A program made the position numbers and the translations under genes. A DNA stretch of 46,676 nt from Butyrivibrio sp. (GTDB taxonomy: Bacteria > Bacillota > Clostridia > Lachnospirales > Lachnospiraceae). This document shows, one piece after another, positions 2,047-46,676 of this stretch (its first letter is position 1; each line of letters starts with the position of its first letter). Location: NCBI RefSeq assembly GCF_017635265.1, contig NZ_JAGBLU010000118.1:1-46676 (forward strand). The letters are read 5' to 3'. The notes beneath the pieces are model-generated. The model made no database searches. It was not told the DNA's origin and saw only the letters and a program-made list of their open reading frames with translations.

Positions 2047-2643
2047 TTATCTGATGACTGTATTCAAGAACTTCATACCATGGAATGAGGCAGTCCATTC
2101 ACTCAAATTATACTCCACCTTGCTCTCTTTACCGTCAGCCGGATCTATAACGGTCATTCCGATCCCATCATTCGATATCTTTTTAATATTTTTGTTTCCA
2201 ACCGCATAAACATAATGCCGAGGATCTGGTTGGCCACCTAAATCATATCCCATAATAAGAATTGCACTCTCTCCATTTGCCAGATCTTGTATAACATGGG
2301 GGTCTTTCAAATGTCTAGTGGGATCAAGAATATGTAACAAATTTCTAAAATTGGCATCCGCAGAAATAACCTCTGTGTTAATTCCCAAACGATTATTGAG
2401 ATAATCTGAAATTCTAAACGGATTAGAAAAGCCTCTCATCGCATCGGCCATAGCATGATTAAAATTATCAATAATCTGCATATCAGCCATATTAAACCTT
2501 ACATTATTATAGATGATATGAACTTCTTCCTCATCGTTTACATTGTTAGCGGGCAGATGTCCACCTGCAGTTTCCCAAACCCAGTACGCCGCTGCATATG
2601 CTCCACATCTTACATCTCCTCGACTCTGATTAATATATGGCAT
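2047..2643 (-). CDS. Papain-like cysteine-protease-like protein (putative effector)
   Basis: This 198-residue protein has no signal peptide or membrane segment. The order of motifs suggests a papain/C39-like fold: Gln6 about seven residues before a Cys-Gly at 13-14 (RCGAYAAAYW), then PRHYVYAVG near residue 142, and IDPADG near 166. These fit the oxyanion Gln, nucleophile Cys, catalytic His and Asp of such enzymes. The family assignment is inferred from motif spacing, not from a recognised close relative. A good ribosome site (AAAGGAG) precedes the ATG. It sits between the relaxase-linked gene and the XRE/cytolysin pair as accessory cargo of the element. It could cleave a host or competitor protein, process the cytolysin, or act as a deubiquitinase-like effector; the sequence does not decide. 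Confidence 0.55.
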   Translation of the reverse strand: MPYINQSRGDVRCGAYAAAYWVWETAGGHLPANNVNDEEEVHIIYNNVRFNMADMQIIDNFNHAMADAMRGFSNPFRISDYLNNRLGINTEVISADANFRNLLHILDPTRHLKDPHVIQDLANGESAILIMGYDLGGQPDPRHYVYAVGNKNIKKISNDGIGMTVIDPADGKESKVEYNLSEWTASFHGMKFLNTVIR

Positions 2644-2799
2644 AAATCATTCTCCTTTCAATTGATACTTCCTGCTCTTTATGTTGTATCCACATTATAT
2701 TCACTGTCACTTCCAATTCCAATTATCACAAATGAAATTCTAGAAAGCTATTAGAATAAGCAAGGTATATGCAAAACATATTCTCAAAAAAATCTAAAA

Positions 2800-3930: not shown

Positions 3931-4726
3931 TTGCTAAATCCTCCTTGTTCACTTTAAGACCTGAAAAGGTCTTTTCAATCTTGCTGTCACGGACCTTATC
4001 TCCGCGTTCATTTTCAAATACTATGTGCTTGCGTTTATCCTCCCACTTTACTGACCATCCTTTTTCTGCCATGCCTGAAATGAATTCCTTTTTGCAGGCA
4101 GACCTTGGGATCACTTCCATAAGGGCAATACCACAGTCTGCCAAAAAGCTCTTTTTTGAGTCATTGGTAAGAAGCTTGTAAGTGTTCTTATTCCATGCGA
4201 TGATCTCGCCAGGCTCGATAGGCGTACCATCAAAGTGACGTCCTTTCTCAGCTACATGCAGTCCTTTTTCACGGCAAAGATTATTAGTGAATACCTTCTG
4301 CTGCTCCAGATCCTTTTTGGACTGATGGAGCTTTCGGCCATCAATATAGGAAACGCTGTTGGTTACGATATGACAGTGAAGGTGATCTCTATCCTGATGA
4401 ACAGCAACTACGCTCTGGTGTCCTGAAAAGAACTCCTCTGCAAAAGCCTTTCCAATTTCAAGCACCTCAGCAGGGGTGACCTGTTCATCTTTGTGGAAAC
4501 TGATCACGTTATGGGCACACATCCTTCCAGAATCCTTATCCCACAGCTTCTTTTCTTCAATCCAGGTCCTGTACACCGCATCGTAGTTGACTGTAGGTTC
4601 AAGATACGGTCCGATTACATCCAGATAGCCTTCCTTAACCTTTTCATCCTTTAGCACGTACTCTATGGTATTTCTCAAGCCCCCGTGGCTTTTAGCGGGC
4701 TTACCGACTGCCTTATTAATCGCCAT
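3515..4726 (-). CDS. MobP-type relaxase (relaxase/mobilization nuclease)
   Basis: This 403-residue protein is the DNA-nicking enzyme that starts conjugative transfer at oriT. The N-terminal domain has TIEYVL near residue 20-25, with a candidate catalytic Tyr23, and the metal-binding HxDxxHxH motif at 110-117 (HQDRDHLH, followed by CH). A region rich in Ser, Gly and Glu follows from about 300, and the C-terminal 50 residues are an Arg/Glu helix. That tail is encoded by the DNA that also encodes the N-terminus of the next gene, so its composition may reflect dual coding. A GGAGGATGATAAAAG leader precedes the ATG. The start overlaps the end of mobC by 52 bases, so the two are translationally linked. 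Confidence 0.9.
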   Translation of the reverse strand: MAINKAVGKPAKSHGGLRNTIEYVLKDEKVKEGYLDVIGPYLEPTVNYDAVYRTWIEEKKLWDKDSGRMCAHNVISFHKDEQVTPAEVLEIGKAFAEEFFSGHQSVVAVHQDRDHLHCHIVTNSVSYIDGRKLHQSKKDLEQQKVFTNNLCREKGLHVAEKGRHFDGTPIEPGEIIAWNKNTYKLLTNDSKKSFLADCGIALMEVIPRSACKKEFISGMAEKGWSVKWEDKRKHIVFENERGDKVRDSKIEKTFSGLKVNKEDLAIEFERQNELRLGNTEATEPGNKPEESECLERYYAEVESAIVGISGGGSVGGSSEADSGEPSEGYADRGSEKSDTEQLVREVRTDICNSRAQSRELISAERKSVDRERERRLEEQRRALEQERTAEISCRSRRHSEPSR

Positions 4727-5067
4727 CTTTTATCATCCTCCTTTCGAAATTCCAATATCTTATCAGAAATCTCATTCAGTTTTTCTATTGTTGGTAAAAC
4801 ACCCTGACCATTTGCAGCATGTGCCATCTGGTTGATATTGGTAGCTATACCTCTTAGCTGTCTGTCCTGATCAGCAAAATTCCTGCTGATATCCTTTATT
4901 ACCTCTAACTCCTTGGCAGAGGTGATGTTTGAGTCACGGATTGCACTTATGATAAATGACTGCTGTGTCAATCCGGATTCTTTTATTTTGCTCTGCAATG
5001 CATCATACTCAGCAGCATTCATGCGTATGGTGATTGCTTTATTTCTTCTTCGTTTAGCTATTCCCAT
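4675..5067 (-). CDS. mobC: MobC-like relaxosome accessory protein
   Basis: This 130-residue protein begins with a basic ribbon-helix-helix region (GIAKRRRNKAITIRM; NAAEYDALQ; SGLTQQSFI) and continues into a helical region with the MobC-type pattern RQLRGIATNINQMAHAAN near residue 70-85. Such proteins bind oriT and help the relaxase nick DNA. The start at 5067 is chosen over longer frames because GAGGAG lies about 11 bases before it and the sequence upstream is the hairpin-rich oriT region. It ends inside the relaxase gene (52-base overlap). Confidence 0.85.
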   Translation of the reverse strand: MGIAKRRRNKAITIRMNAAEYDALQSKIKESGLTQQSFIISAIRDSNITSAKELEVIKDISRNFADQDRQLRGIATNINQMAHAANGQGVLPTIEKLNEISDKILEFRKEDDKRWRLIRQSVSPLKATGA

Positions 5068-5093
5068 GATTAAATTTGCTCCTCTCATTTTTT

Positions 5094-5129
5094 GCGCTGG
5101 TTTCCAAAGGGAGCGAGACCCTTTGGCGG
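5094..5129. other. oriT-like module A
   Basis: GCTGGTTTCCAAAGGG is followed by a CCCTTTGG arm, so CCAAAGGG (5104-5111) pairs with CCCTTTGG (5119-5126). Very similar sequence occurs beside mobC/relaxase genes in many Firmicutes elements. It begins 27 bases upstream of the mobC start. The nick site itself cannot be placed. Confidence 0.5.
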
Positions 5130-5246
5130 AGTGCAGAGGCAGAGCCTCTAGACTATTGAACGTAGAAAGAGAAATTATCCGGGGGATGATTTCTTTTTCT
5201 GAAGTCTGGTAGTCGGCTCCGGTGTGCAGAGGTTGGATAAACCTTT

Positions 5247-5361
5247 GCTGGGGGTTCCAAGGGGGCAAAGCCCATCTGGCAAGTTTAGCGAAAGAGAAAA
5301 TGCCGATAGGCGTTTTCGATGAAGCGGTGCAATGTGGCTTGCCACTTTGCGAAACTTGCCA
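5247..5361. other. oriT-like module B with inverted repeat
   Basis: GCTGGGGGTTCCAAGGGGGC followed by AAAGCCC and TGGC is a diverged copy of module A. Right of it lie 17-18-base arms (TGGCAAGTTTAGCGAAAG at 5277-5294; its near complement at 5345-5361) enclosing smaller hairpins at 5297-5316 and 5329-5350. A nic-like box next to a long inverted repeat is the usual architecture of a MobP oriT. Confidence 0.5.
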
Positions 5362-5531
5362 TATTTTTCCATCGCCGATATGGCATTCAGTGTAGGGTCG
5401 GCTCGGCGGGCGATGGGGAAATATGTGGTCTTGCGATTTGCCCGGGCGAGAGATACCGATGCAGGGATGGAGAATGCTGCTATAGCTTCCGGCAGGAAGT
5501 GATAGTAGTATTCTTCATCTCTGCAAACAAA

Positions 5532-5699
5532 GAAGGAGCAAACAGTCCAGTGGACTATTTGCCCCTTCGAAGTGGTCAGGTATCAAACGAACCGGGAAGA
5601 AATGAAAGCGGTGCGAACTGCGCCGTTTTCATTTCTGGTAAATCGCCTCGCTGCAGCGAGCAATCTCAGTTTTCGCCCTCATGGCATCATTTTGATGCC
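5532..5699. repeat. Cluster of four hairpins
   Basis: In order: an 18-bp imperfect stem at 5532-5568 with a 1-base loop; a 16-bp stem with two mismatches at 5599-5614/5620-5635; the palindrome CTCGCTGCAGCGAG at 5647-5660; and GGCATCA-ttt-TGATGCC at 5683-5699. None has a T-run. They lie just downstream of the ParR-like gene, so a parC-like or single-strand origin role is possible. Confidence 0.5.
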
Positions 5700-5735
5700 G
5701 TATGAATTATCAGGTGGCTCCAAAGTGATGCCACA

Positions 5736-6095
5736 TTAAAATTCATCAAGAAAACTGAGAGCATCTTCACTGACAGCCCTATATTCATCTGTCTGTGGCT
5801 CATCCTTGGTTATCGCTGTGGTAGTGTGCCTTTTTTCACAAACAGATGCTTTTTTGATCAGCCTATTATCAGCTACCAGCTTATTGGCGACCAGTTCAGC
5901 AATTCTTTCGGCAACCACATTTAATGAAATACTTTCCATGCTCTCAGTACTTACTGCACCTTTACATATAAGTCTGAGAGCTACTGCATTCTTGGATATA
6001 TTTTTCTCTTCAGAAATCCTTTGGAGTAATTCCCAGGCTTCTTTATCCTGGGGATTATCCATACGAAATCTGATGCTCAATCTCTTTTCTGACAT
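5736..6095 (-). CDS. ParR-like partition / ribbon-helix-helix protein
   Basis: This 119-residue protein begins with a beta-strand/helix pattern (KRLSIRFRM; DKEAWELLQRI; NISKNAVALRLI) typical of ribbon-helix-helix DNA-binding domains and ends in an acidic tail (SEDALSFLDEF). It directly follows a ParM-like actin gene. That order and size match ParR, which binds centromere repeats and the ParM filament tip to segregate low-copy DNA. The ATG at 6095 is preferred over one at 6122 because AGAGGTGA lies just upstream; that leaves a 23-base gap to parM. The centromere-like site may be the hairpin cluster on its left. The ParR label rests on context and the fold pattern. Confidence 0.65.
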   Translation of the reverse strand: MSEKRLSIRFRMDNPQDKEAWELLQRISEEKNISKNAVALRLICKGAVSTESMESISLNVVAERIAELVANKLVADNRLIKKASVCEKRHTTTAITKDEPQTDEYRAVSEDALSFLDEF

Positions 6096-6118
6096 ACAAT
6101 CACCTCTGGGAAGAAGGC

Positions 6119-7048
6119 TCAAGCCCCCTTCCTAAGCTGATGCTGTGCGTTATAGAGTTCTTCGTAGCCCTTGGCTGTAGCACAGATGTCTTCAATAATC
6201 TCCACACTTGAAGCATCATATTTTCCGAAGTTCCTTATAAGGCATCCTCCGCCTCCGATGATATGGAGCTTTACAAGCTCCGGATCATATTCATACTCAC
6301 TGAGCTTTTCGAAGATCATCTCGGTATATCTGACCGCTTCGCGCCTCATTACCGCCTGAATCCTTTCAGAAACTTCAGCGGATCCATTTATGAGGAAATC
6401 CTCAATTATGCTTTCATCCGGGATTTTTCCGCATTCTGCCTGAACCTCGTTCATGATATGCTTTACGCACTCATGAACGCCGATCTTATCTGTAAACTTT
6501 TTGTCAGATAAGGGGCGGCCGTTTGTTATCACCAGCGTGTTCATGGTGCCGTTGCCTATGTCAGCCAGCATATGCACTCCCTTGTAGTCTCCAAGGGAAG
6601 CTGCTATTGCTGCATATCCCTGCGGATAGACTGCAACATCGCATATTCTGATGTGATAGTACTTCCCGCAGTACCTGTAACTGACTTCAGGTCTTTTCAT
6701 CAGATAATCCCTGAATGAGCTTTTCTGCTTGGACATCCAGTGAAGGGGAAGTCCTGCAGCAAGTATCAGATCGGCTGACCTTAAACCTCTGATCTCAAGC
6801 TCTTTTGCAATTGCTGCCAGCGTGAGGATATAGTAGTCACCATCCTCATCCTTATTGGCAATGAATACTTTATGGCTTTCGCCGATAACGTAGTACATGC
6901 CATCAAGCTGCAAGACGTTGGTTGCTATTGCAGGCTCCTCGCTATAGGACTTAACTCCGCTCTTAAACACCACATTCCTTGTTTTCATGTTTCCATAACC
7001 GTGATCAATTCCGATCACTAACTTTCCATCTGCATACAAATTATTCAT
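6119..7048 (-). CDS. parM: ParM/StbA-type plasmid segregation actin
   Basis: This 309-residue protein belongs to the actin-like ATPase family. Visible motifs are the phosphate-1 loop IGIDHGYGNMK near residues 12-22, phosphate-2 LADIGNGTMNTLV near 160-172, and an adenosine-type IIGGGGCLI near 263-271. Such proteins polymerize to push sister DNA copies apart, using ParR as adaptor. An AACGGAGG ribosome site lies upstream of the ATG at 7048. A partition pair on an integrated element suggests a maintained extrachromosomal replicating stage. It lies in one run with the replication protein upstream and the ParR-like gene downstream. Confidence 0.85.
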   Translation of the reverse strand: MNNLYADGKLVIGIDHGYGNMKTRNVVFKSGVKSYSEEPAIATNVLQLDGMYYVIGESHKVFIANKDEDGDYYILTLAAIAKELEIRGLRSADLILAAGLPLHWMSKQKSSFRDYLMKRPEVSYRYCGKYYHIRICDVAVYPQGYAAIAASLGDYKGVHMLADIGNGTMNTLVITNGRPLSDKKFTDKIGVHECVKHIMNEVQAECGKIPDESIIEDFLINGSAEVSERIQAVMRREAVRYTEMIFEKLSEYEYDPELVKLHIIGGGGCLIRNFGKYDASSVEIIEDICATAKGYEELYNAQHQLRKGA

Positions 7049-7084
7049 ACCTTTAAAATCCTCCGTTTTCTCTGATATTTGTTT

Positions 7085-7837
7085 TTAGTTACATAAGAGC
7101 TTCTTTTCCAGCTCTTCAAAGTCATACTCGTTCTGCTGGAAATTGCAGAAGGTATTCTTTCTCGGCGGCGAGCTCTGAAAAGCTGACGGCCTGCCAAGCC
7201 GCTCCTTGCACCAGCTCCTTATGGTCTCGTAGTTAAGGCATCCCTTATAGCCACGATCCCTGATACGCTGTATCTGGTAGTCAACGTTTGCCTTGCCAAA
7301 CTCTGAAACCAGATCATCATATTCAGCATCCGTGAGTGTGTCCGCCTTACACACTTCTTGAGTAATAGATTTATAGTTATTAGATTTATTATTAATATAT
7401 TGTGGCGGGTTTTCCGCATGCGGTTTTCCCGTATCCCGATTTACCGCATCCCGGTTTTCAGGACACGGTGAAGATTCAGGTTTTATGGGGAATTCTTTGA
7501 TTATCTTTCTGCCTGGATCATCAGGTGAAGGTGAGGGTGATGCGATAGGAGATTCGTGGACTTCAAGGTTAGTTGAATCAAACTTGCCTCCACCATCCCT
7601 GTTCTGCTCTCTCGTGATATAGCCTTTTTCTATGAGGCTGTTAAGAGTCTTGGACACCCTGTCCTTTCCATCCGGGAGGATCTGACAGAGACCTTTGATT
7701 GTCAGATTCCAGTTATCCGGCAAAGAAAGAAGGGTAAGAAGCATACCACGCTCTGTTAGTGATAGGTTTCTGTCCCTCATGATGTTTTGGGAGACTACTG
7801 TATAGTTTCCCTGAGTTTTATTTTTAAGTATTGCCAT
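7085..7837 (-). CDS. Winged-helix replication initiator-like protein
   Basis: This 250-residue protein starts MAILKNKTQGNYTVVSQNIMRD and has an N-terminal winged helix (residues about 25-80: LSLTERGMLLTLLSLPDNW; DRVSKTLNSLIEKGYI). A Pro/Ser-rich linker (about 95-150) follows, then a C-terminal DnaD-like helical part (DAEYDDLVSEFGKANVDYQI; GYKGCLNYETIRSWC). This layout is typical of Firmicutes plasmid and ICE replication proteins that load host machinery. The upstream leader contains a terminator with a competing hairpin (7860-7918), pointing to attenuation control. AAAGGAG precedes the ATG. Biochemical function is inferred from family resemblance and from the parMR neighbours. Confidence 0.7.
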   Translation of the reverse strand: MAILKNKTQGNYTVVSQNIMRDRNLSLTERGMLLTLLSLPDNWNLTIKGLCQILPDGKDRVSKTLNSLIEKGYITREQNRDGGGKFDSTNLEVHESPIASPSPSPDDPGRKIIKEFPIKPESSPCPENRDAVNRDTGKPHAENPPQYINNKSNNYKSITQEVCKADTLTDAEYDDLVSEFGKANVDYQIQRIRDRGYKGCLNYETIRSWCKERLGRPSAFQSSPPRKNTFCNFQQNEYDFEELEKKLLCN

Positions 7838-8155: not shown

Positions 8156-9466
8156 TTACTCTACAAGCTGTCCGTAGAAAAGAAGCTCCGGATTCTCGCT
8201 GTCTGTGAGAATCATATATTTAAACGGTTCATCTGCTACAAACTCTTTTACTTCGGGCTCTTCAAGAGCACAAGCTTCAGTCACCATAACTGCTGTAGCA
8301 GCTGCGGCTTCAATACCTTTCTCGTCCACCTTGATCTTAGTTTTCTGAATAATATCAGAAATAAAAAGTTGCATCTCGTCGCTCATTATTGAGAAGTCTG
8401 CATCAGATGTAAATGCCGCCTCAGCTCCACGGGCTTTGCAGAAATCTATTAGCTGATTTTCTGACAGCGCTGTCTCTGATTCAAATTTCGGAAGCTTAAC
8501 TTGAACCTGCTGAGAATCTGCTTCAGCCATCCTGGCTATAACATCATCCACTTCACCAATGATAAATACAGCATTTATGCCACCATTCATTGGAAGGACT
8601 ACAAACTTTCCTTTCTCATCCTCATAATACTTGAACTTGTTTTCCTGATTCATGAAATCTTTTTTTACTGTTTCTCCGGGAAGAGTTTTAAAATCGCCTT
8701 CTTCCGTAGCATATTCATAGAAATCATTTACCCAGGAGGTGCGTAGATACAGCGTATTTACCAAAATAAGATCGGCATATGACAGGTCGTTACTGATGTA
8801 TGGGATTAGACCATTGGTGTTTTCGTTGATCCAGCCATTTACTGTATCTGTAATCTCGTCTTCAGAGACATTTTCAGCAGTTGCTCCGAAAGTATCTCTC
8901 ACATATTTCATATATTTCACGGACAACTCTCCGCTGGATTTTGTATTTCTCCAGATGGAGTTTTCCAAATTAAAAGCACCTTCCGGCTCCTTGGCATCAT
9001 CACCGTAATAATCCCTGTATTTGTTAAATTCTTTTCTGGCTGACTTTAACCATTCATCATATGTATCCACCGATTCTGATACACTTTTGTACCATGCGGT
9101 CAGCTCATCCATGCTGCTAAATCCCATGGCATTCAAAAGTTCATCTTTTGTCTCATTATCGGCGCCTGCCACAGCAAGTGACAGAGCTGCTCTAAAGGAA
9201 GTCGGGGATATCATGTAGTTCTTGTCTTCAAAGCCGGTTTTCTCGATAAAATCTATAAGCGAACTGTTAAAATTCATGTTTATATCCACATCCTTAATCT
9301 CCAAAACCGTAACCTCTGAAACATCTGTTGTGCTCACATCTGTATTTGAGCTTCCATCTTCCTTGGACGTTATCTGTGTATTTCCCGGTTTTTCCGTATT
9401 CCCACATCCCAAAATAACACCGGTAACTAATAATATTGATAGTAAAACTGATATTATTCTTTTCAT
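8156..9466 (-). CDS. Serpin lipoprotein (serine protease inhibitor)
   Basis: This 436-residue protein has a lipoprotein signal peptide with the cleavage site at VILG-C21, a Thr/Ser-rich linker, then a complete serpin fold of about 380 residues (NFNSSLIDFIEKTGFEDKN; ISPTSFRAALSLAVAGA). The hinge of the reactive loop reads EKGIEAAAATAV, close to the inhibitory consensus, and the loop continues MVTEACALEEPEV before the FVADEPFKYMI strand. Counting from the hinge puts P1-P1' near Ala-Cys, which would suit an elastase- or papain-type target. Serpins trap proteases irreversibly by loop insertion; here it would protect the cell surface. ATG at 9466 is chosen because AAGGGAG precedes it and it yields the signal peptide. 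It is third in an operon with an ECF sigma and an anti-sigma-like gene. Confidence 0.9.
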   Translation of the reverse strand: MKRIISVLLSILLVTGVILGCGNTEKPGNTQITSKEDGSSNTDVSTTDVSEVTVLEIKDVDINMNFNSSLIDFIEKTGFEDKNYMISPTSFRAALSLAVAGADNETKDELLNAMGFSSMDELTAWYKSVSESVDTYDEWLKSARKEFNKYRDYYGDDAKEPEGAFNLENSIWRNTKSSGELSVKYMKYVRDTFGATAENVSEDEITDTVNGWINENTNGLIPYISNDLSYADLILVNTLYLRTSWVNDFYEYATEEGDFKTLPGETVKKDFMNQENKFKYYEDEKGKFVVLPMNGGINAVFIIGEVDDVIARMAEADSQQVQVKLPKFESETALSENQLIDFCKARGAEAAFTSDADFSIMSDEMQLFISDIIQKTKIKVDEKGIEAAAATAVMVTEACALEEPEVKEFVADEPFKYMILTDSENPELLFYGQLVE

Positions 9467-9483
9467 AATGTTCTCCCTTGTCA

Positions 9484-10125
9484 TTACTGTCTTACGAATA
9501 CTCTCCATACTCCTTCATTGGGATCGATGTGCACTACTATCGCATCCTCATTAAGTACAAAGTATTCTGTCTCTGCTGACCTGTCAAAGTTCTGCTGTCC
9601 ATCTTCTGAAGGTTCGCCATCCGTATATGATGTGACCTTAAGTAAGCCATCGTCTAAGATTTCGCCGATATACTCTTCGCCGGAGTCTTTGTAAATTGCT
9701 CCCCCGTACATTAACATTGCAGGATAGTCGGAGTCATCAGACTCTGTAATTACAGATTCTTCTGTAGCTTTTGCTTCGTTTCCCTCTATAGCTTCAATAC
9801 CGTCTGTTTCTTCACTTGCTTCAGGATTTCCGGATGTCAGCATAGGAGAACCTTCGGTTAATTCCGGGGCAGCTTCTTCACTTTCCTCAGGAATAGCCTC
9901 CAATGTTGTGATTTCTTCTGTTTCATCTACAGACTCATATACAGTAGTTACATGATTGTTTCTGATTACAATTCCTGCCACAACCATAAGCAAAAGACCT
10001 GCCACAGCAAGATAATAACGCTGAAAATGCGCAATTTTACTATGTCTTGAAACTGTTTTATCAGCATTTTTTATGTACTTTGAATCTATGCCGCCAATGG
10101 CATCTAATAAATCATGTTCATTCAT
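9484..10125 (-). CDS. Membrane-anchored anti-sigma-like protein
   Basis: This 213-residue protein has a cytoplasmic N-terminus (MNEHDLLDAIGGIDSKYI), one membrane segment at about residues 37-54 (YYLAVAGLLLMVVAGIVI), and an extracellular part with a very acidic linker (about 65-130) and a small folded C-terminal domain ending WRVFVRQ. The start overlaps the sigma-factor stop by 4 bases (ATGA type). The order sigma factor then single-pass protein is that of an ECF sigma/anti-sigma pair; no zinc-binding anti-sigma motif is visible, so this rests on context. It probably senses an envelope signal that leads to serpin production. Confidence 0.65.
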   Translation of the reverse strand: MNEHDLLDAIGGIDSKYIKNADKTVSRHSKIAHFQRYYLAVAGLLLMVVAGIVIRNNHVTTVYESVDETEEITTLEAIPEESEEAAPELTEGSPMLTSGNPEASEETDGIEAIEGNEAKATEESVITESDDSDYPAMLMYGGAIYKDSGEEYIGEILDDGLLKVTSYTDGEPSEDGQQNFDRSAETEYFVLNEDAIVVHIDPNEGVWRVFVRQ

Positions 10126-10682
10126 ACAGTGAATCCTCCGTCTGCAAGATGCTTCTTAAGTTTTTCCCTCATCCTGAAAAGCGTGGTCTTTACTTTACTC
10201 TGGGGAAGAGAGTATTTTGCACATATCTCAGTTACGGAATCAAAGTACCAGTATCTTCTGACAAAAATGTTCCGCTGCTCCTCAGAGCATGAATCAAGAA
10301 AACGATTTATGCACTCAGAAAGCTCTTTTGCATCAAACTCCTGTGAAACATCAACGCTTCCCGGGATACACTCCTGCATCTCGTCAGTAAGCTCGCAGTA
10401 CAGGGCAGATCTCTTTTGCCTGTTCTCATGACGAAGCCTGTCTATAGCTAGATGTCTGACAATCTTTCCGACAAATGAAAAAAGATACGTCCTTGGCTCG
10501 TTGGGCGGTATCAGATTCCAAGTCTGGAGGTATGCATCGTTTTCGCATTCCTTGGAAGTTTCTGCATCTGATAGTACGTTCTGGGCTATTCTTTTAAGTT
10601 TGGTTCCGTATTTCTGAGATGTCTGCGTTATAGCTGATTCATCTCTTGATAAGTAGAGCTCTACAATCTGTGAGTCATCCAT
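10122..10682 (-). CDS. ECF-type RNA polymerase sigma factor
   Basis: This 186-residue protein has sigma region 2 (about residues 25-95: ECENDAYLQTWNLIP; YLFSFVGKIVRHLAIDRLRHENRQKRSA) and region 4 (about 130-180: LSEEQ-like SEEQRNIFVRRYWYFDSVTEICAKY; SKVKTTLFRMREKLKKHL). It would direct transcription from a small regulon, including its own operon. A candidate ECF promoter lies at 10724-10752. GAGGATCATCTTC precedes the ATG. It is first in the operon with the anti-sigma-like protein and serpin. Confidence 0.9.
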   Translation of the reverse strand: MDDSQIVELYLSRDESAITQTSQKYGTKLKRIAQNVLSDAETSKECENDAYLQTWNLIPPNEPRTYLFSFVGKIVRHLAIDRLRHENRQKRSALYCELTDEMQECIPGSVDVSQEFDAKELSECINRFLDSCSEEQRNIFVRRYWYFDSVTEICAKYSLPQSKVKTTLFRMREKLKKHLADGGFTV

Positions 10683-33275: not shown

Positions 33276-35129
33276 TTAATTTTCTCCTGATGCCTCACTC
33301 GCAGCATCGCTGGCTTCTTCTGATTCATTTGTTGTCTTTCCTGTACCGGAAGAATCAATCTGCGAGCTGTCAATATTCTCTTTTGATGTCTCATTTATAG
33401 TATTTGTGTCTTCTGTTGAGCTCACATTGGTCGCTTCTTCTGTAGCCTTACTTGTACTTTCAGAAGACTGTCCCGATGTCGTGCCGGAAGTCGCCCCGGA
33501 AGAACTGCTGCCGGTTGACCCCGAGGTACTTGATGAGCTACTTGAAGAACTGCCTGAGCTTCCCGATGAAGAGCTGCTTGAGGCTGAACTACTTGATGAG
33601 CTACTGCTTGATGAACTACTACTTGATGAACTGCTTGATGCAGAGCTTGAAGAACTGCTTGAGGAGCTTGCCGCACTGGACGCACTCGATGCACTACTTG
33701 AAGAGCTGCTGCTATCTTTCTTTTTCACAAGGTCTGAGAAGCTGTACGATACGTTATCTTCCGCCTTGTCTATCTTTATTCTGTAGCTTATGGTTTCATA
33801 ACCACTTCTTTTAAGTATTACTTCGTGATTTCCGGAAACCTTCTGAACTCTTGTCGGTATTGCCCCAATATAATAGCCATCAAAATACAGCTCTGCATCC
33901 ACAGGCTTATCAAAATAAATATAATACCCGCTTATGACTTTGTTTTCAGACTCGCTTGAACTGTTACTGCTTACTGTTGATGCCTTGGATGCTGATGCGC
34001 TCTTAGATGTAAGCGCACTGGCATCAGCATTTTTTACAGCAAGACTTGCCTTAGCTGTGCTGTTATTTACTGTGGCATTATTTACAGATAAACTCCTTGC
34101 TGATGAATCATCTTCAGAGTCTTTCTCAAGCTCTATACTTACTACTGATTTGGCGGTTCCGACCTTAAGATATCTGTTTTGCGTTATGTACCCTTCAGCC
34201 ATAATCTTCAGATTATGATATCCGTATTGAACGCTCTGCGGTGTTCCTACAAGAACCTTTTTTCCATCTACAAATACTTCAGCTGAAGCAGGAGTAATCT
34301 CAAAAGTCACAAGTCCCTCCTTGGGCTTTGAGATTGTAATATCACTGGTATCTACAACAGTTTCCTGATTTCTTGATATGCTGACTTCAGACTGATAATT
34401 GGCACCATTACCAATAATCTGTAAGTTGTATTCTCCCTCAGGGGCGCTAAGGAGCATATTGGGAGATATCTTGTGAATAACCTCGTTATCAAGTTCAATC
34501 CATGCTCCAACCAGACTCTGCTCTTCAACAACGTCAGATGAAAGGCTTACGTAACCATGTCCCCCGGTAACGATAACACTATATATATCCCGGCCTATAC
34601 CGGAAACCTTGATCTTATCTGTAGAAAGAATATTTTCGGCAATAGCAAGCTCACCGTCAGCCATAACAAGTGTTTTATCATTAATTCTGTATATCTCGTC
34701 CTTAATTCTGGCAGTTCCGTCATTTCTCACAAGTTCATGATCTTTGGTACTGTCTATTACCCATGCTTCTTTGGATACGTTAAGGGTTGTGATGTGCTTG
34801 GTGCTTTTCAGAAATGTCACATCAACGATTTCGCCAACCTCCAGCATTTGCGCTGATAAAACAGTACCTTTGGCATCATACATCATGCTGGTATTATCAT
34901 AATCAAGGGTATAGGTCTTTCCCGTTGCATGATTTCTGAATCGAATCTTCTTTTTATCTGTATCTATCGCCCTTATAGCAGCGGTATCTGCAGAATCATA
35001 TTTACCTACCAGTGATACTGTAACTTTGTTTGAAGTTATTGCAAGTGCATCGGTGGATGACGACAACATAATTGCAGTTGCCATACATATAGCTGTTACA
35101 ATTCTGATTGCACATCTAAAGTTTCTCAT
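33276..35129 (-). CDS. Secreted PEGA-domain protein with poly-serine tail
   Basis: This 617-residue protein has a signal peptide (1 to about 30), a beta-rich region (about 35-260), then two PEGA modules: about 268-340 (FEITPASAEVFVDGKKV...YHNLKIMAEGY) and about 395-465 (YIYFDKPVDAELYFDGYYIG...GNHEVILKRSGYE). After KKKD comes an almost pure Ser/Ala tract of about 80 residues, then a Ser/Thr/Glu-rich end. PEGA modules usually sit at the cell surface; the tail looks like a flexible or glycosylated spacer. There is no LPxTG or C-terminal membrane anchor. It lies between cca and rqcP, 14 bases after cca. Confidence 0.75.
   Translation of the reverse strand: MRNFRCAIRIVTAICMATAIMLSSSTDALAITSNKVTVSLVGKYDSADTAAIRAIDTDKKKIRFRNHATGKTYTLDYDNTSMMYDAKGTVLSAQMLEVGEIVDVTFLKSTKHITTLNVSKEAWVIDSTKDHELVRNDGTARIKDEIYRINDKTLVMADGELAIAENILSTDKIKVSGIGRDIYSVIVTGGHGYVSLSSDVVEEQSLVGAWIELDNEVIHKISPNMLLSAPEGEYNLQIIGNGANYQSEVSISRNQETVVDTSDITISKPKEGLVTFEITPASAEVFVDGKKVLVGTPQSVQYGYHNLKIMAEGYITQNRYLKVGTAKSVVSIELEKDSEDDSSARSLSVNNATVNNSTAKASLAVKNADASALTSKSASASKASTVSSNSSSESENKVISGYYIYFDKPVDAELYFDGYYIGAIPTRVQKVSGNHEVILKRSGYETISYRIKIDKAEDNVSYSFSDLVKKKDSSSSSSSASSASSAASSSSSSSSSASSSSSSSSSSSSSSSSSSASSSSSSGSSGSSSSSSSSTSGSTGSSSSGATSGTTSGQSSESTSKATEEATNVSSTEDTNTINETSKENIDSSQIDSSGTGKTTNESEEASDAASEASGEN
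33480..33720 (-). repeat. Low-complexity serine-codon tract
   Basis: Mixed AGC/AGT/TCA/TCT serine codons with occasional GCA/GCC alanine encode the poly-serine tail. Codons vary, so it is not a simple triplet repeat, but length change by recombination is plausible. Long open frames on the opposite strand are by-products of this tract. Confidence 0.8.
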
Positions 35130-39948: not shown

Positions 39949-39983
39949 AAGAGAAGCCGGCTCAATTTCCGGCTTCTCTTTTT
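39947..39983. terminator. Bidirectional terminator between convergent genes
   Basis: AAAAGAGAAGCCGG pairs with CCGGCTTCTCTTTTT. It overlaps the stop codon of the GGDEF gene on one side and encloses the pectinesterase stop on the other. Confidence 0.8.
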
Positions 39984-40981
39984 ATACTGGCAATAAGTAA
40001 ATCTGCTTTTTCAATTATTGACTTATATGTATCTGCATCTATATCTTTTACCCAGCTGTTCTTATTGGAAAGACTAATTGGGGTTCCGTCTACAAGACTT
40101 ATTGTATTGTATTCGCCATAAGTTGCTGCGGGCTCATCCTTGGTGATTCCTCCCCATCCGGAGAAACGCTCAGGAGCAATCGCATCATCCATCTTACAAT
40201 CAAGGAATACCGATTTTGCTTCTTCTCTCCAGGGGCGCCCCAAAAATACAGACGCTTTATCACAGCCATCCTCGCCTTTTACAACGCAATTTCTAAAAAC
40301 AAATCCAAGATTATCCTTGCTTCCGCAGGCTGCTGTTATATAGCCGTTTACAAATCTCTCGCTGTCATCCTCATCATGAGGCTGAAGTTTTCTGTTATTG
40401 CACTGTATAAAGCAGTCATCAAATACCGCATCTGCTCCGCCAAAAATAAAGTCTACATCACCGTATATCTCACAGTTTTTGTAATACTGCTTTGTCATTT
40501 TTCTGGGAGTAAGCACCCTTGGTCCCATAAATCCGTTTTTTTGCCTCTCGGTTAACGGAAGCGGCGCACAAAAAAGTGTATCCTGATATCCTGTCATCTT
40601 AACTTTCTCAAATATACACTCCTCCGCATCCGCATATACTGCAAGTGCCTGACCGTGAGTTCTTCCGTCACCGACAGTATTTTTTATGGTCATATTTTTT
40701 ACGACAACTCTTTTTCCGCCAAAGAAAGCTGTTGCTGTGCGGAAAGTTCCGCGTTTTGTGCCATCCTCCATTTCATCAAAAGCGCCATCATTATACTCTA
40801 GTATTGTTTTGTCGATTCCCTCGCCTATGAAAGTAATGTTGCTCTTTTCACAAAATATTTTTTCGCAAAAAACACCTTCTCCTATACGGATTACGGTATC
40901 TTCTTCATATGGAGCAGCCTGAATGGCCTCATTAATTGTGGAATAATCTCCATCCTGCTTTTTTACACTTATTTCAAGCAT
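39962..40981 (-). CDS. Pectinesterase (CE8), intracellular form
   Basis: This 339-residue right-handed beta-helix enzyme removes methyl groups from pectin. Conserved sites are GYQDTL with D134, GDVDFIFG with D177, and LGRPW with R249. The C-terminal KNSWVKDID segment is also family-like. No signal peptide is present (MLEISVKKQDGDY), so it should act on imported methylated oligogalacturonides. It lies 46 bases after an alpha/beta esterase gene and shares the strand with the interrupted sugar-binding gene. Confidence 0.88.
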   Translation of the reverse strand: MLEISVKKQDGDYSTINEAIQAAPYEEDTVIRIGEGVFCEKIFCEKSNITFIGEGIDKTILEYNDGAFDEMEDGTKRGTFRTATAFFGGKRVVVKNMTIKNTVGDGRTHGQALAVYADAEECIFEKVKMTGYQDTLFCAPLPLTERQKNGFMGPRVLTPRKMTKQYYKNCEIYGDVDFIFGGADAVFDDCFIQCNNRKLQPHDEDDSERFVNGYITAACGSKDNLGFVFRNCVVKGEDGCDKASVFLGRPWREEAKSVFLDCKMDDAIAPERFSGWGGITKDEPAATYGEYNTISLVDGTPISLSNKNSWVKDIDADTYKSIIEKADLLIASIKREAGN

Positions 40982-41027: not shown

Positions 41028-42122
41028 TCACTTGGAAAATTCTTCAAGTATTTCCTGATGAAAACAATGTTCTCCATCCCTTATATCATGGACAATTTCA
41101 TTTTCTTTTCCATATAACTCATATGCTTTTTTTATGATGTCAATCTGCTCATAAACATTTAAAAGCCCCCTTGGACCATTTAAATGATCATCCCTGCAGG
41201 ATTGGATAAAAAGCTTTCTGGGTGCTATAAGCGATGCTATATCCCCCATGTCAAAATGCTCCCACAAGTGCGGAATATAGTTGCAGTTACAATTTCCATT
41301 AAGCGTAAGAAGTGAATCTTTATACCCGTACATATATCCGCTTATCAGAACTTTTTTTATCCTGTCATCCATTGCAGCCGCCCAGAGCGCCTGCATCCCG
41401 CCTCCTGAAAATCCCAGGCATCCCAGAGTATCCGTATTCCATCCTTCCCGGCTTCCACGGTCAATCATATAATCTATAAGCCGCATGGCATCCCATGTGC
41501 ACATTCCGCACACAGTTTCCCCAAGCCCTTCTGCCATATGAGCCAAATGAAAACAGGTACTGTTAAGAAAAGATGACTCGCTGTCGTCTCTAAGAGCTTC
41601 ATCTCTTCTCTCGCCAAATCCTCTGCAATCAGGGCACGCTACCACAAAACCTTTTTTGGCAAGTGAAAGTCCGTAGTCATAATTAAATCTCTCAATCGCT
41701 TCTTTTACTGCCGGTATATCTGTGCAACCTGCTACGCTGTATTTTCCTGCTCCCATATGTCCGGGAAGTGCAATATAACACTCCGGATGTTCTACTTCCT
41801 CCGGAATAAGTAAAAAAACTGTCATAAATATTCCGGGTTCAACCTGCAAAATAAGATGCTCTCTTGTAATAACGGATGCATTAAAAGAGGCAGGTAACTG
41901 CACCTTCTCGTCAATGCACGGACTAAGATCACACTTTTCCATAACATTTAATCCGAGAAGGTCAGTCAACGTCTTGCGGCTTTCGCTTTTCCATTTAATG
42001 AAATCTTCTATACTGCTGCCGCAAAACGCATCCTGCCTCGCGCGCTCATCAAAGCGCTTCTGCATCGCCTCCAAGCATCCATAATATTTTTTGATATGTA
42101 ATGTTTTAGCAATGCTTTCCAT
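41028..42122 (-). CDS. Alpha/beta hydrolase (acetyl-esterase-like)
   Basis: This 364-residue cytoplasmic hydrolase has the nucleophile elbow GFSGG with S239, an Asp in SCRDDH near 313-318 and a His in GEHCFHQ near 350-356. The long N-terminal segment (1-90) and the region around PGHMGAGKYS resemble the Abhydrolase_7/acetyl xylan esterase group. Its neighbours suggest removal of acetyl groups from pectin fragments, but the substrate is inferred. It starts 16 bases after the lipoprotein stop. Confidence 0.75.
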   Translation of the reverse strand: MESIAKTLHIKKYYGCLEAMQKRFDERARQDAFCGSSIEDFIKWKSESRKTLTDLLGLNVMEKCDLSPCIDEKVQLPASFNASVITREHLILQVEPGIFMTVFLLIPEEVEHPECYIALPGHMGAGKYSVAGCTDIPAVKEAIERFNYDYGLSLAKKGFVVACPDCRGFGERRDEALRDDSESSFLNSTCFHLAHMAEGLGETVCGMCTWDAMRLIDYMIDRGSREGWNTDTLGCLGFSGGGMQALWAAAMDDRIKKVLISGYMYGYKDSLLTLNGNCNCNYIPHLWEHFDMGDIASLIAPRKLFIQSCRDDHLNGPRGLLNVYEQIDIIKKAYELYGKENEIVHDIRDGEHCFHQEILEEFSK

Positions 42123-42138
42123 TTTTATTTCTCAACCT

Positions 42139-43725
42139 TTAATTATTCAAAGCTTTTAGATAACGATCATACTGCTGCTGACGGATACTTACAAGTTCAG
42201 GAAGATTAAGTGCTTCAAGTCCGGAAATATATCCGTCAAATTCTGTAGCAATATCTTTTGTACCTGTTATAAACGCTGTAGAATTCTCATCAACATTTGT
42301 CTGGATATCTTCCAGATACATATTGATTGTATCACTTTCATCGGAAGTTGCATAAATCATCGGCCAAGGATCAACAACATACTGACGCATATCAGCGTTA
42401 ATCTCTGCATGCCAGTCAGCTACAAGAATATCTGTTGCTTCTACAGACTGCTGTGCCGGGAAAACAAATGAAGGATTGATACCAAACTGCTGTAACCAGT
42501 CATTATCTTTACCCTGTTCTGTGTATTCTCTTGAACCGTCTGCGTTTACTACATAGCTCTCGCCTTCAATACCCCACTGATAGTAGTCCTGACAATGCTC
42601 GCTCATTGAGTAATCAAGGAATTTACATGCAAGCTCAATCTGGCTTGACTTGGAGCTTACACCAAACATACCTGAAAGGAAGTTTCTTCCTACATAGAAG
42701 CCTTCATGTTCTCCTGAAAGTGGCTTAACTCCTACAAATGCTGTAGCTGCAGTTCCATCATAATATGGAAGAACATTTGAATACATCATTGACATAGCCC
42801 AGCTATAGTCGAATGCAACACCTGTAAGATCATTTGAAATTCTCTCAATAACCTTGTCTCTGTCAAGAGAAGTGAACTCAACTTCAAGAAGGCCTTCTGT
42901 GTAAAGGCTGTTCAGGAACTCCAGATACTTGCGGTAATTTTCTGAATCTGCTGCCGCATATGTAACTGTTCCATTTTCATCAGCCTGGAATCCGCTTACA
43001 AGATCAAGTCCGAATGCCGGTCCGAACATATATGGAAGGAATTCGCTCATAACTGACATAGGGATTTCATCAGATGCATCTCCATTTCCATTCATATCGT
43101 TCTCTTTGAAATATCTTAAGAGTTCTACGAATTCATCAAGTGTTTCGGGAGCTTTTTTACCTGCTTTATCAAGCCATACCTGATTGAACATAAGCACCGG
43201 CTGATAGTCGTGAGCTACATTTACGCCTGCAACATAATAAATATGACCATCTTCAGCAGTAAGCTCAGCCTTCTGAACAGGGTTTTCATTTAACCACTTA
43301 GTAAAGTTAGGCATATACTCGAAGTACTCATCAAGCGGAACAAACATTCCTGATTTGATGTAAACCTGATTGGGATCATTATCAGGAATCTTAACAATAT
43401 CAGCATCGATATTGCCTGCTGAAAGCATAAGTGTGATTGCTTCTGCATAGCTGTTGTAATCAAGAAGCTGCCAGTTTGGTTCAACTCCTGCTTCCTCGAA
43501 TACTTTCTGTACAATAGGTGCCTGTGTGATATCTACGTTAGAATAGTTAGATGTCTGAGCGAGAATTTTTATCGTTCCGCCATCTTCAGAAATCGGTCCT
43601 TCTCCTGTGTAACTGAATCCGCTTTCTTCTACCTTTGTTGATGCGTTTTCAATTGCAGCATCAACTGTCTCTGTTTTGTTCTCCCCTGTTGATACCTCTT
43701 GTTGTGTGTCAGCACTGCTGCCACA
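42139..43725 (-). pseudogene. 5'-interrupted oligosaccharide-binding lipoprotein gene
   Basis: This is the lipoprotein part of the fusion, from the lipobox Cys codon (43723-43725) to its stop. Its length (528 residues) and features (TIKILAQTSNYSN; MNGNGDASDEIPMS; VVDPWPMIY) fit the large LplA-like binding proteins for complex plant oligosaccharides. Start codon and signal peptide should lie at the far end of the inserted element. No internal start with a ribosome site was seen near the junction, so a functional exported product is unlikely in the integrated state. Confidence 0.7.
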
Positions 43726-45456
43726 TCCTGTGTCTACACTATGATTTGAGCACTGATTTTCCTGATGTACACTACTATTTGAGGACACATTTTCGTCGCT
43801 CTTTTTACTCTTCGGACCAAACTTTGTTTTAGCATGATCGAAGCTATCCTTGAATCCGGTTTTGTATATAAAAGTGACCTTATAGGGATCTGCATTTCCG
43901 TCATCGTCGTACCCTCCGACAATGACTTTTTCAACAATACTTTCAAAAACCGCTCTATCAAATTCTTCAAGAACCTGATTCTGAGTAAGAGTCTTTCTGA
44001 AGCCTTCTATTCTCTTGCGAAGACTATCGTCTCCCTGTACCTGCTTTTCATAGTATTCAAGCTGAGACTGTGCTTCTGCATATTTAACCTCATATTCAGC
44101 ATCCATTGACATATAGGTTTCTTTATCTATCCCGTCATCAACATATTTATCAAGAAGTTTTTTTCTTTTTTCTTTGTATTGCTTGACCTCTTTCTTAGCC
44201 TTCTGATAGTTCTTCTCGTTGGCATCATCTCCAAGAGTCTTCTCTATCCTACTCAGAAACTCATTCATTACTTCCTGATTATCTGAACACAAAAGTCTAT
44301 ATGATTCTATAAACGCTTCCTCTATGACCTGCTCCGGAATACCCTTGGAATCGGGACATAGCTTTTTGCCACCCTTCGTAGATGTAACACATTGCCAAAT
44401 AGTCTTTTTATACTTGGATGAGCTGTGCCATTTTCTTCTTGTGAGATGACCACCGCAAAAACCACATTCTATAAGAGAGCTAAACGCAAACATTCTACTG
44501 TACTTTTCTCTCTTGCCAATCTCAACATGGTGCTGTCTTCCACCGTTACGTCTTTCTCTCAGAGCCTGCGCTTTTTCAAACGTCTCATGTGAGATAATTG
44601 GCTCATGATGATTTTTTATAAAAAAGCGATCTTCCTCTCCAAGATTATCAAGCCTTCTCTTAGTTATAGGATCAACAGTAAATGTCTTTCCTAACAGAAT
44701 GTCACCTGTATACTTTTCATTATTGATAACCCCCATGACGCTTGAAGATGTCCAAGGATTACCCCGTATAGTCATGATGCCTTGCTCATTAAGCTCTCTG
44801 GCAATCATCGTGCTTCCGGCTCCTGCCACATATCTTTCAAACATATATCTGACAGTTTCGGCTTCCTTTTCATCTACCGATATCGTTTTGGTCTCTATAT
44901 CATACTTATAGCCAAGGCAGCCCTGAAATCCTACAAGCTCACCCCGCTTCATCTTCATCTTAAGACCCTTTTTTACATATGCAGAAGTGTTCTCTACTTC
45001 CTGCTGTGCCACAGAACTTAGAATGGTAAGAAGGAATTCGCCATCCTTGATAGTGTTAATCTTCTCAACCTCAAAATAAATAGCAACATTCTTTGTTCGG
45101 AGCTGCCTCACATACTTTAGGGTATCCAGTGTGTTCCTTGCAAACCTCGAAAGACTCTTTGCAATAACCATGTCGATCTTACCAGCCATGCAGTCTGCTA
45201 TAAGCCTTTGGAAGTTCTCTCTCGTCTCTGCTTTGGTTCCGGTAGAAGCCTTGTCAGCATATACTTCAACAAATTTCCAATCGGGATTCTTCTTTATTAA
45301 ATCGGTATAATACTTAACCATAGAGTCATAACTCTTGATCTGCTCTTCATCCGCAGTACTTACTCGACAATACGCAGCTACTCTGAGGCGGTCTTTTCTG
45401 CCTACCGCCGCAGAATTGTCAAAGTTTGTCTTTGCTTTTATAACTTCAACTTCCAT
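42139..45456 (-). CDS. In-frame fusion: large serine recombinase plus solute-binding lipoprotein
   Basis: One uninterrupted frame of 1105 codons. Residues 1 to about 573 form a complete large serine recombinase: resolvase domain with catalytic Ser33 in CRVSTADEEQ and FARNTLDTL, recombinase domain (GYKYD...GNPWTSSSVMGVINNEKYTG), zinc ribbon (CGFCGG...WQC...LC) and a coiled coil, ending near KTKFGPKSKKSDENVSSNSS. From Cys578 (GCGSSADTQQ) the protein is the mature part of an oligosaccharide-binding lipoprotein of about 530 residues (GGTIKILAQ; DYSWAMSMMYSNVLPYYDG). The signal peptide that should precede the Cys is absent. The junction lies at a palindrome (43730-43739). The ATG at 45456 has AGAGGTGG before it. 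The fusion protein would be cytoplasmic. Either a natural integration product or, less likely, an assembly join. Confidence 0.85.
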   Translation of the reverse strand: MEVEVIKAKTNFDNSAAVGRKDRLRVAAYCRVSTADEEQIKSYDSMVKYYTDLIKKNPDWKFVEVYADKASTGTKAETRENFQRLIADCMAGKIDMVIAKSLSRFARNTLDTLKYVRQLRTKNVAIYFEVEKINTIKDGEFLLTILSSVAQQEVENTSAYVKKGLKMKMKRGELVGFQGCLGYKYDIETKTISVDEKEAETVRYMFERYVAGAGSTMIARELNEQGIMTIRGNPWTSSSVMGVINNEKYTGDILLGKTFTVDPITKRRLDNLGEEDRFFIKNHHEPIISHETFEKAQALRERRNGGRQHHVEIGKREKYSRMFAFSSLIECGFCGGHLTRRKWHSSSKYKKTIWQCVTSTKGGKKLCPDSKGIPEQVIEEAFIESYRLLCSDNQEVMNEFLSRIEKTLGDDANEKNYQKAKKEVKQYKEKRKKLLDKYVDDGIDKETYMSMDAEYEVKYAEAQSQLEYYEKQVQGDDSLRKRIEGFRKTLTQNQVLEEFDRAVFESIVEKVIVGGYDDDGNADPYKVTFIYKTGFKDSFDHAKTKFGPKSKKSDENVSSNSSVHQENQCSNHSVDTGCGSSADTQQEVSTGENKTETVDAAIENASTKVEESGFSYTGEGPISEDGGTIKILAQTSNYSNVDITQAPIVQKVFEEAGVEPNWQLLDYNSYAEAITLMLSAGNIDADIVKIPDNDPNQVYIKSGMFVPLDEYFEYMPNFTKWLNENPVQKAELTAEDGHIYYVAGVNVAHDYQPVLMFNQVWLDKAGKKAPETLDEFVELLRYFKENDMNGNGDASDEIPMSVMSEFLPYMFGPAFGLDLVSGFQADENGTVTYAAADSENYRKYLEFLNSLYTEGLLEVEFTSLDRDKVIERISNDLTGVAFDYSWAMSMMYSNVLPYYDGTAATAFVGVKPLSGEHEGFYVGRNFLSGMFGVSSKSSQIELACKFLDYSMSEHCQDYYQWGIEGESYVVNADGSREYTEQGKDNDWLQQFGINPSFVFPAQQSVEATDILVADWHAEINADMRQYVVDPWPMIYATSDESDTINMYLEDIQTNVDENSTAFITGTKDIATEFDGYISGLEALNLPELVSIRQQQYDRYLKALNN
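43723..43785 (-). other. Probable attachment junction of the serine-recombinase element
   Basis: The core GTGT-AG-ACAC (43730-43739) is a palindrome with a non-palindromic central dinucleotide, the usual form of a serine-recombinase crossover. Left of it lies the lipobox codon pair of the host gene. Right of it, in the recombinase, are two direct copies of an 18-base word (43735-43752 and 43768-43785, 15 of 18 identical) spaced 33 bases apart, possible binding sites. Confidence 0.55.
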
Positions 45457-45525
45457 ATCCACCTCTCATTTTTGTATCACTATCGTAATGTACTACGTCA
45501 AATATAAAATAATACGGTAGATAAG

Positions 45526-45675
45526 TCAAGTTTTAAGATCAGATATTACGCCATAATCTCGCATAAGCACCGCTAATATTCTTTTATATTCCCTATCATC
45601 AATCAGGTGTTTGATAAGGAGCTGTTTTAGCATGGACAGTTGAATGCTATAACGTAATAGCTTCTTATTATCTAT
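45526..45675 (-). CDS. Small SHOCT-like element protein (AUA start proposed)
   Basis: A frame of 49 codons reads IDNKKLLRYSIQLSMLKQLL then IKHLIDDREYKRILAVLMRD and ends SDLKT. Helix-turn-helix-like pairs with the pattern LKQLL...LIDDREYKRI resemble SHOCT-type small proteins found beside recombinases on conjugative elements. GGAGG (45684-45688) sits exactly 8 bases before an ATA codon, while the only nearby GTG overlaps the ribosome site and the first ATG is 15 codons further in. ATA is therefore the best placed start. The role is unknown. Confidence 0.5.
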   Translation of the reverse strand: MDNKKLLRYSIQLSMLKQLLIKHLIDDREYKRILAVLMRDYGVISDLKT

Positions 45676-45704
45676 AGCGACCACCTCCACTTCTCATCTC
45701 TTCA

Positions 45705-45953
45705 TTAATTAATATCTGCAGGCAAAAGCCTGTCTGCTTCACAGATAAGCTTTTGCCCACAGACATTCAAAAAAATCCTGCAAGTAGTTACCAGGTTCGT
45801 AACCCACATTGGCGTTGCACCACCTTCGCTAATTGGTTTCCCTTGGGAAAATGTATCATTATCACTGGAAGTATCATCGCCACGGCAGCCCTTACTGCCG
45901 TTAGCCAGAACAGATAACGCTCGCCGAAAAACACGGGTCATCGCATAGTCCAC
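45705..45953 (-). CDS. Small hypothetical protein typical of conjugative elements
   Basis: An 82-residue frame starts at a GTG with GGAG 8 bases upstream. The protein (MTRVFRRALSVLANGSKG near the start; MWVTNLVTTCRIFLNVCGQK near the middle) has three Cys and no recognisable domain. I believe near-identical small frames recur in Lachnospiraceae/Faecalibacterium elements, but this was not checked. It could also be a conserved non-coding region read by chance. Confidence 0.4.
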   Translation of the reverse strand: MDYAMTRVFRRALSVLANGSKGCRGDDTSSDNDTFSQGKPISEGGATPMWVTNLVTTCRIFLNVCGQKLICEADRLLPADIN

Positions 45954-46167
45954 TTAGCAAGCTCCACATTCCATACGTCTTGCAGGATCAACGATATTCA
46001 GTTTTCAAAGTTCGATACCACCGCTTAGGTGGTAATTCTTACATCAGACTTGTCAGTCCGAAAAGCCTATAAGAGACACCGTGCCTGCTAAAACACCAAA
46101 CTCTTATGGACTTTATGAGAGTGACAAATACAAAAGCGTAAGAATGTCAGAAAGCCCTGTTCACTTG
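45954..46167. other. Intergenic region with small inverted repeat
   Basis: About 210 bases without a gene. ACCACC-gctta-GGTGGT at 46018-46034 forms a short hairpin without a T-run. No promoter was assigned. Confidence 0.4.
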
Positions 46168-46386
46168 TTAATATTTCAGTCTGAATTTAGGAATAATCCT
46201 TATCAGACTGATTAAGACCTCCTGCTTGCAATCCTTCAGAGTCTCCTCTGAAAGCCCCGGTGCTACACTCCTCAATATCGACTCCACCTGTGGACTCAGA
46301 CATTCAAGTATACATCCCATAGCGACCATGTTCCCGCTCCGGGCAGAGACTATCATGTCGTAGTCAATCTTTATTTTTCCTGCCAT
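46168..46386 (-). CDS. Helix-turn-helix protein of conjugative-element type
   Basis: This 72-residue protein (MAGKIKIDYDMIVSARSGNM; ILECLSPQVESILRSV; LKDCKQEVLISLIRIIPKF) resembles the small HTH proteins that follow the sigma-like gene in Tn916/Tn1549-type elements. The ATG at 46386 is chosen because it fits the family length; the frame extends 28 more codons upstream inside the sigma-like gene. It overlaps that gene by 23 bases. Confidence 0.65.
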   Translation of the reverse strand: MAGKIKIDYDMIVSARSGNMVAMGCILECLSPQVESILRSVAPGLSEETLKDCKQEVLISLIRIIPKFRLKY

Positions 46387-46676
46387 GCTTCTTTGCCCTC
46401 GCTTTCGCTTTTTTAAGTCCCTGATACTTATACGCTTTTGCCCTGTCTGGAGAGATTCCGAGAAGCTCACCTATCTGGGCATAGTCATAATCAAAAGCCT
46501 CATGAAGTATCAATGCCTGCGCTTCCCTTTCCGTGAGTCCCGTTAGCAGTATTCTTATCAAATCGTCATTGATTCGGATCCTCATATTTGTGATCTCAAG
46601 CTCAATGCCATCCTCAAAGCTATGTTCGTCCTCCGCTGTCATAAACTCTCCGAAGCGCTTCTCATCCAATGCCTCC
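46364..46676 (-). CDS. Sigma-70 region 4-like protein of conjugative element, 5' end outside window
   Basis: At least 101 residues with a sigma region 4 helix-turn-helix (LTGLTEREAQALILHEAFDYDYAQIGELLGISPDRAKAYKY). The frame is open to the window edge. A TTG near 46669 lies too close to GGAGG to be a convincing start, so the gene probably begins beyond the edge. Homologues on Tn916-like elements are transcription regulators of transfer and excision genes. Confidence 0.7.
   Translation of the reverse strand, partial: EALDEKRFGEFMTAEDEHSFEDGIELEITNMRIRINDDLIRILLTGLTEREAQALILHEAFDYDYAQIGELLGISPDRAKAYKYQGLKKAKARAKKHGRKNKD

Follow-up and report, generated by a model that had tools for sequence, protein, structure and literature searches.

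The window, the whole stretch of DNA that was analysed, is contig C95 (46,676 bases) of G000, the draft genome of a Butyrivibrio-type bacterium assembled in 151 contigs with a completeness of 88.16% and a contamination of 1.66%. A single minus-strand frame of 1105 codons runs from an ATG at 45456 to a stop at 42139 (42139..45462, 1107 aa, if the same frame is read from a GTG). The frame consists of 576 codons of a large serine recombinase followed by 529 codons of a solute-binding lipoprotein, and a single protein carries the Pfam domains Resolvase, Recombinase and Zn_ribbon_recom (residues 26–386) together with SBP_bac_1 (residues 643–951). The joint frame described in an earlier note on this DNA is therefore real. 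A chance open reading frame was ruled out, since both halves have homologues; both junctions also exist. The features of the locus are listed in Table 1.

Table 1. Features of the recombinase-lipoprotein locus and of a second mobile element in the window.
Feature	Position	Strand	Evidence
Large serine recombinase gene, portion within the element (576 codons without a stop)	43729..45456	-	Pfam Resolvase/Recombinase/Zn ribbon; protein 100% identical to that of G031 across 576 residues
CA, the probable 2-base core of the crossover (end of codon ACA)	43729..43730	-	Match to G031 ends at 43729; far end reads GCA/TGTGG
Mature solute-binding lipoprotein, 529 codons + stop, beginning with the Gly that precedes the lipobox Cys	42139..43728	-	Pfam SBP_bac_1; orthologues in G034 and G008
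Integrated element, right end, continuing past the contig end	43729..46676	-	97.45% DNA identity to G031 over 43729-46154
Sigma70_r4_2 in element right end	46364-46675	-	Pfam
HTH_16 in element right end	46168-46470	-	Pfam
Esterase-like alpha/beta-hydrolase gene, 3' of the split gene	41028..42122	-	Pfam Abhydrolase_7
Pectinesterase gene	39962..40981	-	Pfam Pectinesterase, E 2e-49
DUF6040 (second mobile element)	2800-3930	-	Pfam
Relaxase (second mobile element)	3515-4726	-	Pfam
NikA/MobC-like (second mobile element)	4675-5268	-	Pfam
ParM-like (second mobile element)	6119-7048	-	Pfam
HTH_36 protein (second mobile element)	7085-7837	-	Pfam

The junction between element and target, located by the end of the DNA match to G031, a genome of the same genus, lies between 43729 and 43728. 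The element sequence ends ...GTAGACACA, the target sequence starts GGATGTGGC, and the recombinase is followed by GGATGTGGCAGC, which is lipoprotein sequence. The target part thus comprises the mature lipoprotein, as previously claimed, and starts one codon ahead of the lipobox Cys rather than exactly at it. An esterase homologue also follows the intact lipoprotein gene of G034, as judged by eye. The esterase-like and pectinesterase genes do lie on the recombinase side of the insertion; the recombinase promoter proposed to drive them was not borne out, with 11 promoter-like sites found where shuffled sequences gave 11.7 on average. Transcription of the esterase genes from the element is possible.

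Recombinase relatives and the missing stop codon

Each of the six named loci that encode the identical recombinase protein, one of which is the record of G031, differs from the window at 12 of 1728 bases, and the changes are therefore synonymous. Past the recombinase of G031, the +1 frame reads as RumA ending HVETVVLLTKC, and the recombinase stop, TGA, is read from rumA DNA; the rumA target is confirmed by the 5' part of rumA at the other element end. Five of the six loci continue into rumA-like DNA, and the contig of the sixth ends 7 bases past the core. The recombinase clade thus integrates in rumA, and the copy of G000 lies instead in a lipoprotein gene. Loci with the identical recombinase (L125-L130) come from genomes labelled Pseudobutyrivibrio, Solobacterium, Butyrivibrio, Bacteroidales and Lachnospira, a distribution reflecting either recent spread or contamination of metagenome-assembled genomes.

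The frame also crosses an xCA core into rumA-like DNA in G022 and G013; in G011 the continuation is likewise rumA-like and in phase, with AAG at the core, and G057 shows no recognisable rumA-like site after the core and continues into a different sequence. Among 80 named loci, the core codon is xCA in 78 and AAC in two. A rumA-like +1 frame follows the core in 73 of the 80 (script and inspection by eye), the label denoting a short motif rather than a homology search at each locus; seven of these 73 run into the recombinase tail described below (L140, L145, L147, L161, L165, L178 and L199). Other sequences follow the core in five loci (L139, L159, L164, L186 and L195), and the contig ends within 7 bases of it in two (L129 and L152). 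By eye, the sequence past the core is presumably that of a glycosidase in L159 and of a permease in L139, in a phase that differs from the recombinase. In L146 (Parablautia), the frame appears by eye to continue for 115 residues within the C-terminal domain of RumA, so that here the usual target would be joined in frame.

In the 78 loci with a stop, the frame continues past the core for a median of 13.5 and a maximum of 115 residues, compared to 529 in the window. The recombinase in the window has, as the earlier note held, no stop of its own and reads on in the frame of its target: the element ends at 43729 and the frame stays open to 42139. In this recombinase family the stop is usually supplied by the target and, given an element end without a stop, the match in phase with the lipoprotein gene is a one-in-three accident. 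The 1105 codons open without a stop might suggest a domesticated fusion with a function of its own, in which a DNA recombinase is joined to a sugar sensor. We consider this extremely improbable: no second genome among the 61 searched has such a fusion; of 80 relatives, the 78 with a readable end extend the frame by no more than 115 residues beyond the core; and the far end of the element is there in full, as an ordinary insertion would leave it.

The far element end and the interrupted gene

In G008, the intact lipoprotein gene is preceded by a permease gene, whose best match in G000 lies at C43:2161-3030 (83%). Past this permease gene on C43, an ATG opens the signal peptide MKKKVLSLLLASSMVMSVLA, which leads directly into TGTGGAGACTGTGGTTCTGC, the left element end that is also present in the rumA gene of G031. 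The missing signal peptide of the lipoprotein is thereby accounted for, and the refuting outcome named in the earlier note, a far end without such a fragment, is not what is seen: a start codon is present there, followed by a lipoprotein signal peptide in frame with GCGSS. The far junction reads GCA/TGTGG, with the same 2-base core as the junction in the window. Joined to each other alone, the chromosomal flanks give an intact lipoprotein of 549 residues with the lipobox LAGC, which is 71% identical to its orthologue in G034 and 68% to that in G008, both uninterrupted. Within the limits of the assembly, these data establish that the element inserted precisely, with CA as the core, and precise excision would, in principle, reverse the insertion.

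A ParA gene follows the left element end on C43, the sigma/HTH genes lie at the other end on C95, and both contigs stop inside the element; the related element in G031 has a coupling protein, a VirB4-like ATPase and a relaxase between its ends. G000 contains one match to the recombinase tail and one full-length near-identical match to the recombinase, and C43 and C95 probably bear the two ends of one and the same copy. The draft state of the assembly (151 contigs) and the fact that both contigs end inside the element might point to an assembly chimera, with the element end joined to an unrelated gene. However, the two junctions are reciprocal at the same 2-base core, and misassembly is therefore unlikely; moreover, one half of a single gene is found on each contig, and its neighbours there are orthologous. 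We assign this explanation a negligible probability.

To the left of the element lie an AraC-type regulator, two permease-like genes (one of the two run through Pfam) and, near them, a PfkB-family kinase; to the right are the esterase-like gene and the pectinesterase. The substrate of the transporter may thus be related to pectin. The search of 61 genomes, G000 included, found close lipoprotein orthologues solely in G034 (72%) and G008 (70%), both uninterrupted, and the insertion in the lipoprotein gene is absent from every other genome in this set.

The locus very probably arose through secondary-site insertion, at the signal-peptide/lipobox junction of an ABC-transporter lipoprotein gene, by an integrative element whose large serine recombinase is of the rumA type, with the gene ends swapped in frame. 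In this recombinase family, the attachment site lies inside the recombinase gene, near its 3' end, in a codon phase that is nearly always the same (xCA/TGT), so that integration swaps gene ends: the recombinase leaves its tail at the opposite element end and takes on the next sequence of the target. A rumA target is out of phase, usually with a stop within a few codons. The lipoprotein target is in phase, and two chimeric frames arise because core and target share this phase. The first, recombinase and mature lipoprotein in 1105 codons, lacks a signal peptide and is predicted to be cytoplasmic; the second joins the signal peptide to the recombinase tail in 89 codons, with a possible new lipobox VLA/C. 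Transport is predicted to be lost while the element is integrated, and precise excision would restore the 549-codon gene. Loss of uptake, translation of the chimeras and excision would be the expected events in the cell.

The earlier note had proposed a genetic switch for pectin uptake. As a selected switch, in which regulated excision turns on a transporter of pectin fragments with an effect comparable to that of the prophage in Listeria comK, this draws on the exact rebuilding of the gene from the joined flanks, on the adjacency of the split transport operon to the pectinesterase, and on the parallel of CTn5, for which exit from an adhesin site with restoration of the gene is reported (PMC4320837). 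On the other hand, the insertion is found in one genome only, the sole close orthologues among the 61 genomes, in G034 and G008, are uninterrupted, and the identical recombinase lies in rumA-like DNA at five of six named loci. A pectin-uptake switch is thus possible on the strength of reversibility in principle; that such a switch was selected we consider very improbable, and the proposal is not upheld.

The recombinase tail

The left element end is open in the phase of the recombinase for 69 codons, with no ATG start near its beginning by eye. This tail is conserved: a search with its residues gave matches in 69 of 397 genomes of the family. Among the 30 tail loci listed, 21 follow a clear 5' part of rumA, one follows the present lipoprotein and one (L108) a permease-like frame; the other seven carry no assignment. 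The recombinase frame stops at codon 52–69 in 25 of the 30 loci and is still open at the contig end in four; in L107 it stops at codon 2. Near the core of L116, the phase is a different one. L108 at the left end and L139 at the right end are off-target loci whose permease-like frames resemble two halves of one gene.

The case for a coding tail is based on codon-position counts and stop positions; an open-frame count is true by design here, since each sequence was trimmed where the recombinase frame stops. Beyond tail codon 13, changes at codon positions 1, 2 and 3 number 40, 48 and 118 in 10 non-overlapping pairs, which share ancestry; a translated frame would be expected to give this pattern. 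Single frames that span recombinase and tail do exist. In the six genomes with the seven tail-joined loci, the tail is found in frames of recombinase length in G456, G458 and G459 (660, 674 and 640 codons, respectively); G459 contains a second tail 61 kb away, which fits tandem elements, and G461 gave no tail match. From the phase at its two ends, the circle of the G000 element would likewise encode recombinase and tail in one frame. The tail matched no Pfam family below an E value of 1. The low-confidence structure predicted for a natural recombinase-tail protein (L161) has a mean pLDDT of 64 and a pTM of 0.29, and shows the tail as a strand hairpin, mostly with pLDDT below 55.

Exchange of the recombinase C-terminus might represent a built-in control of directionality kept across Lachnospiraceae, with the tailed form of the circle used for integration and the integrated form, tail-less or target-tailed, used for excision or silent; we put this forward tentatively, as a reading that may well prove wrong. 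If it is true, the copy in the window, with its foreign tail of 529 residues, is a natural test of the tail's tolerance to change. A functional difference between the two recombinase forms has already been suggested for streptococci (PMC4701971), and with codon evidence for a translated tail in Lachnospiraceae this suggestion, a guess when published, can be tested directly.

Target choice, known elements and other features of the window

G000 contains three rumA-family genes, all uninterrupted. The rumA gene on C75 reads HCET, and the paralogue on C34 has an empty near-consensus site, TCCGGACATGTGGAGACTGTTGTG. Since this site is uninterrupted, the element landed off-target although a good rumA site is free in G000, and an explanation by the lack of any remaining canonical site is contradicted. 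A preference for lipobox DNA is weakly suggested: with matrices built from 21 left and 57 right rumA half-sites, the target half-sites rank in the top 1.2% of 7819 CA positions on C95 and C43, far below the true sites, which were scored with the matrices built from them.

The mechanism of insertion is already known for this family; the locus described here adds a striking instance of it and does not amount to proof of a new switch. According to Ambroset et al. (2016, PMC4701971), streptococcal ICEs of rumA with a single serine integrase have their attachment site in the integrase gene, the 3' parts of integrase and target are exchanged, the excised integrase has a different C terminus, and secondary sites occur. 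The element described here is like these in its attachment site within a serine integrase gene, the exchange of gene ends and the use of a secondary site. The streptococcal ICEs target rumA and both frames change; in G000, by contrast, a lipoprotein gene was hit and neither exchanged frame is closed, which yields two long chimeras. CTn5 of Clostridioides difficile 630 lies in the adhesin gene CD1844 with rumA free, and leaves CD1844 with the gene restored, according to van Eijk et al. (2015, PMC4320837); a CTn5-CD1844 fusion is mentioned in another paper (PMC3158075). On these accounts, both are rumA-related elements at a secondary site in a surface-protein gene, with rumA free and a fusion formed, and excision of CTn5 restores the gene; host and target differ, and the likeness is drawn from these features rather than from a comparison of recombinases or junction frames. 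PMC4701971 also cites the Myxococcus phage Mx8, which carries attP inside its integrase gene, so that integration replaces the C terminus; its tyrosine integrase is unrelated to the present serine recombinase. Recombinases 49–55% identical to that of the window are found in the Streptococcus phages phi-SsuZKB4_rum and phi-SgaBSJ31_rum, the Erysipelothrix phage phi1605 and the plasmid pAPRE01. Their frames cross the core in the same phase and, unlike the 529 codons in the window, end about 1–25 codons past it.

The double in-frame swap, of recombinase to lipoprotein and of signal peptide to tail, is unusual within this known kind of insertion. In the open-licence literature, we found no report of such a swap involving a lipoprotein gene, and none of codon-level evidence that Lachnospiraceae translate the tail. 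For a widespread recombinase family, the two junctions of an off-target landing are both visible here, and they illustrate how a single crossover can fuse unrelated genes in frame at its two ends simultaneously.

Elsewhere on the minus strand of the window, positions 1-7837, at the opposite contig end, hold a portion of a second mobile element (Table 1). Positions 8156-10682 encode a lipoprotein-type serpin (PF00079) immediately 3' of a probable ECF sigma factor and a membrane anti-sigma-like protein, the latter two assigned by eye, and a PEGA-domain protein with a long serine-rich run is encoded at 33276-35129.
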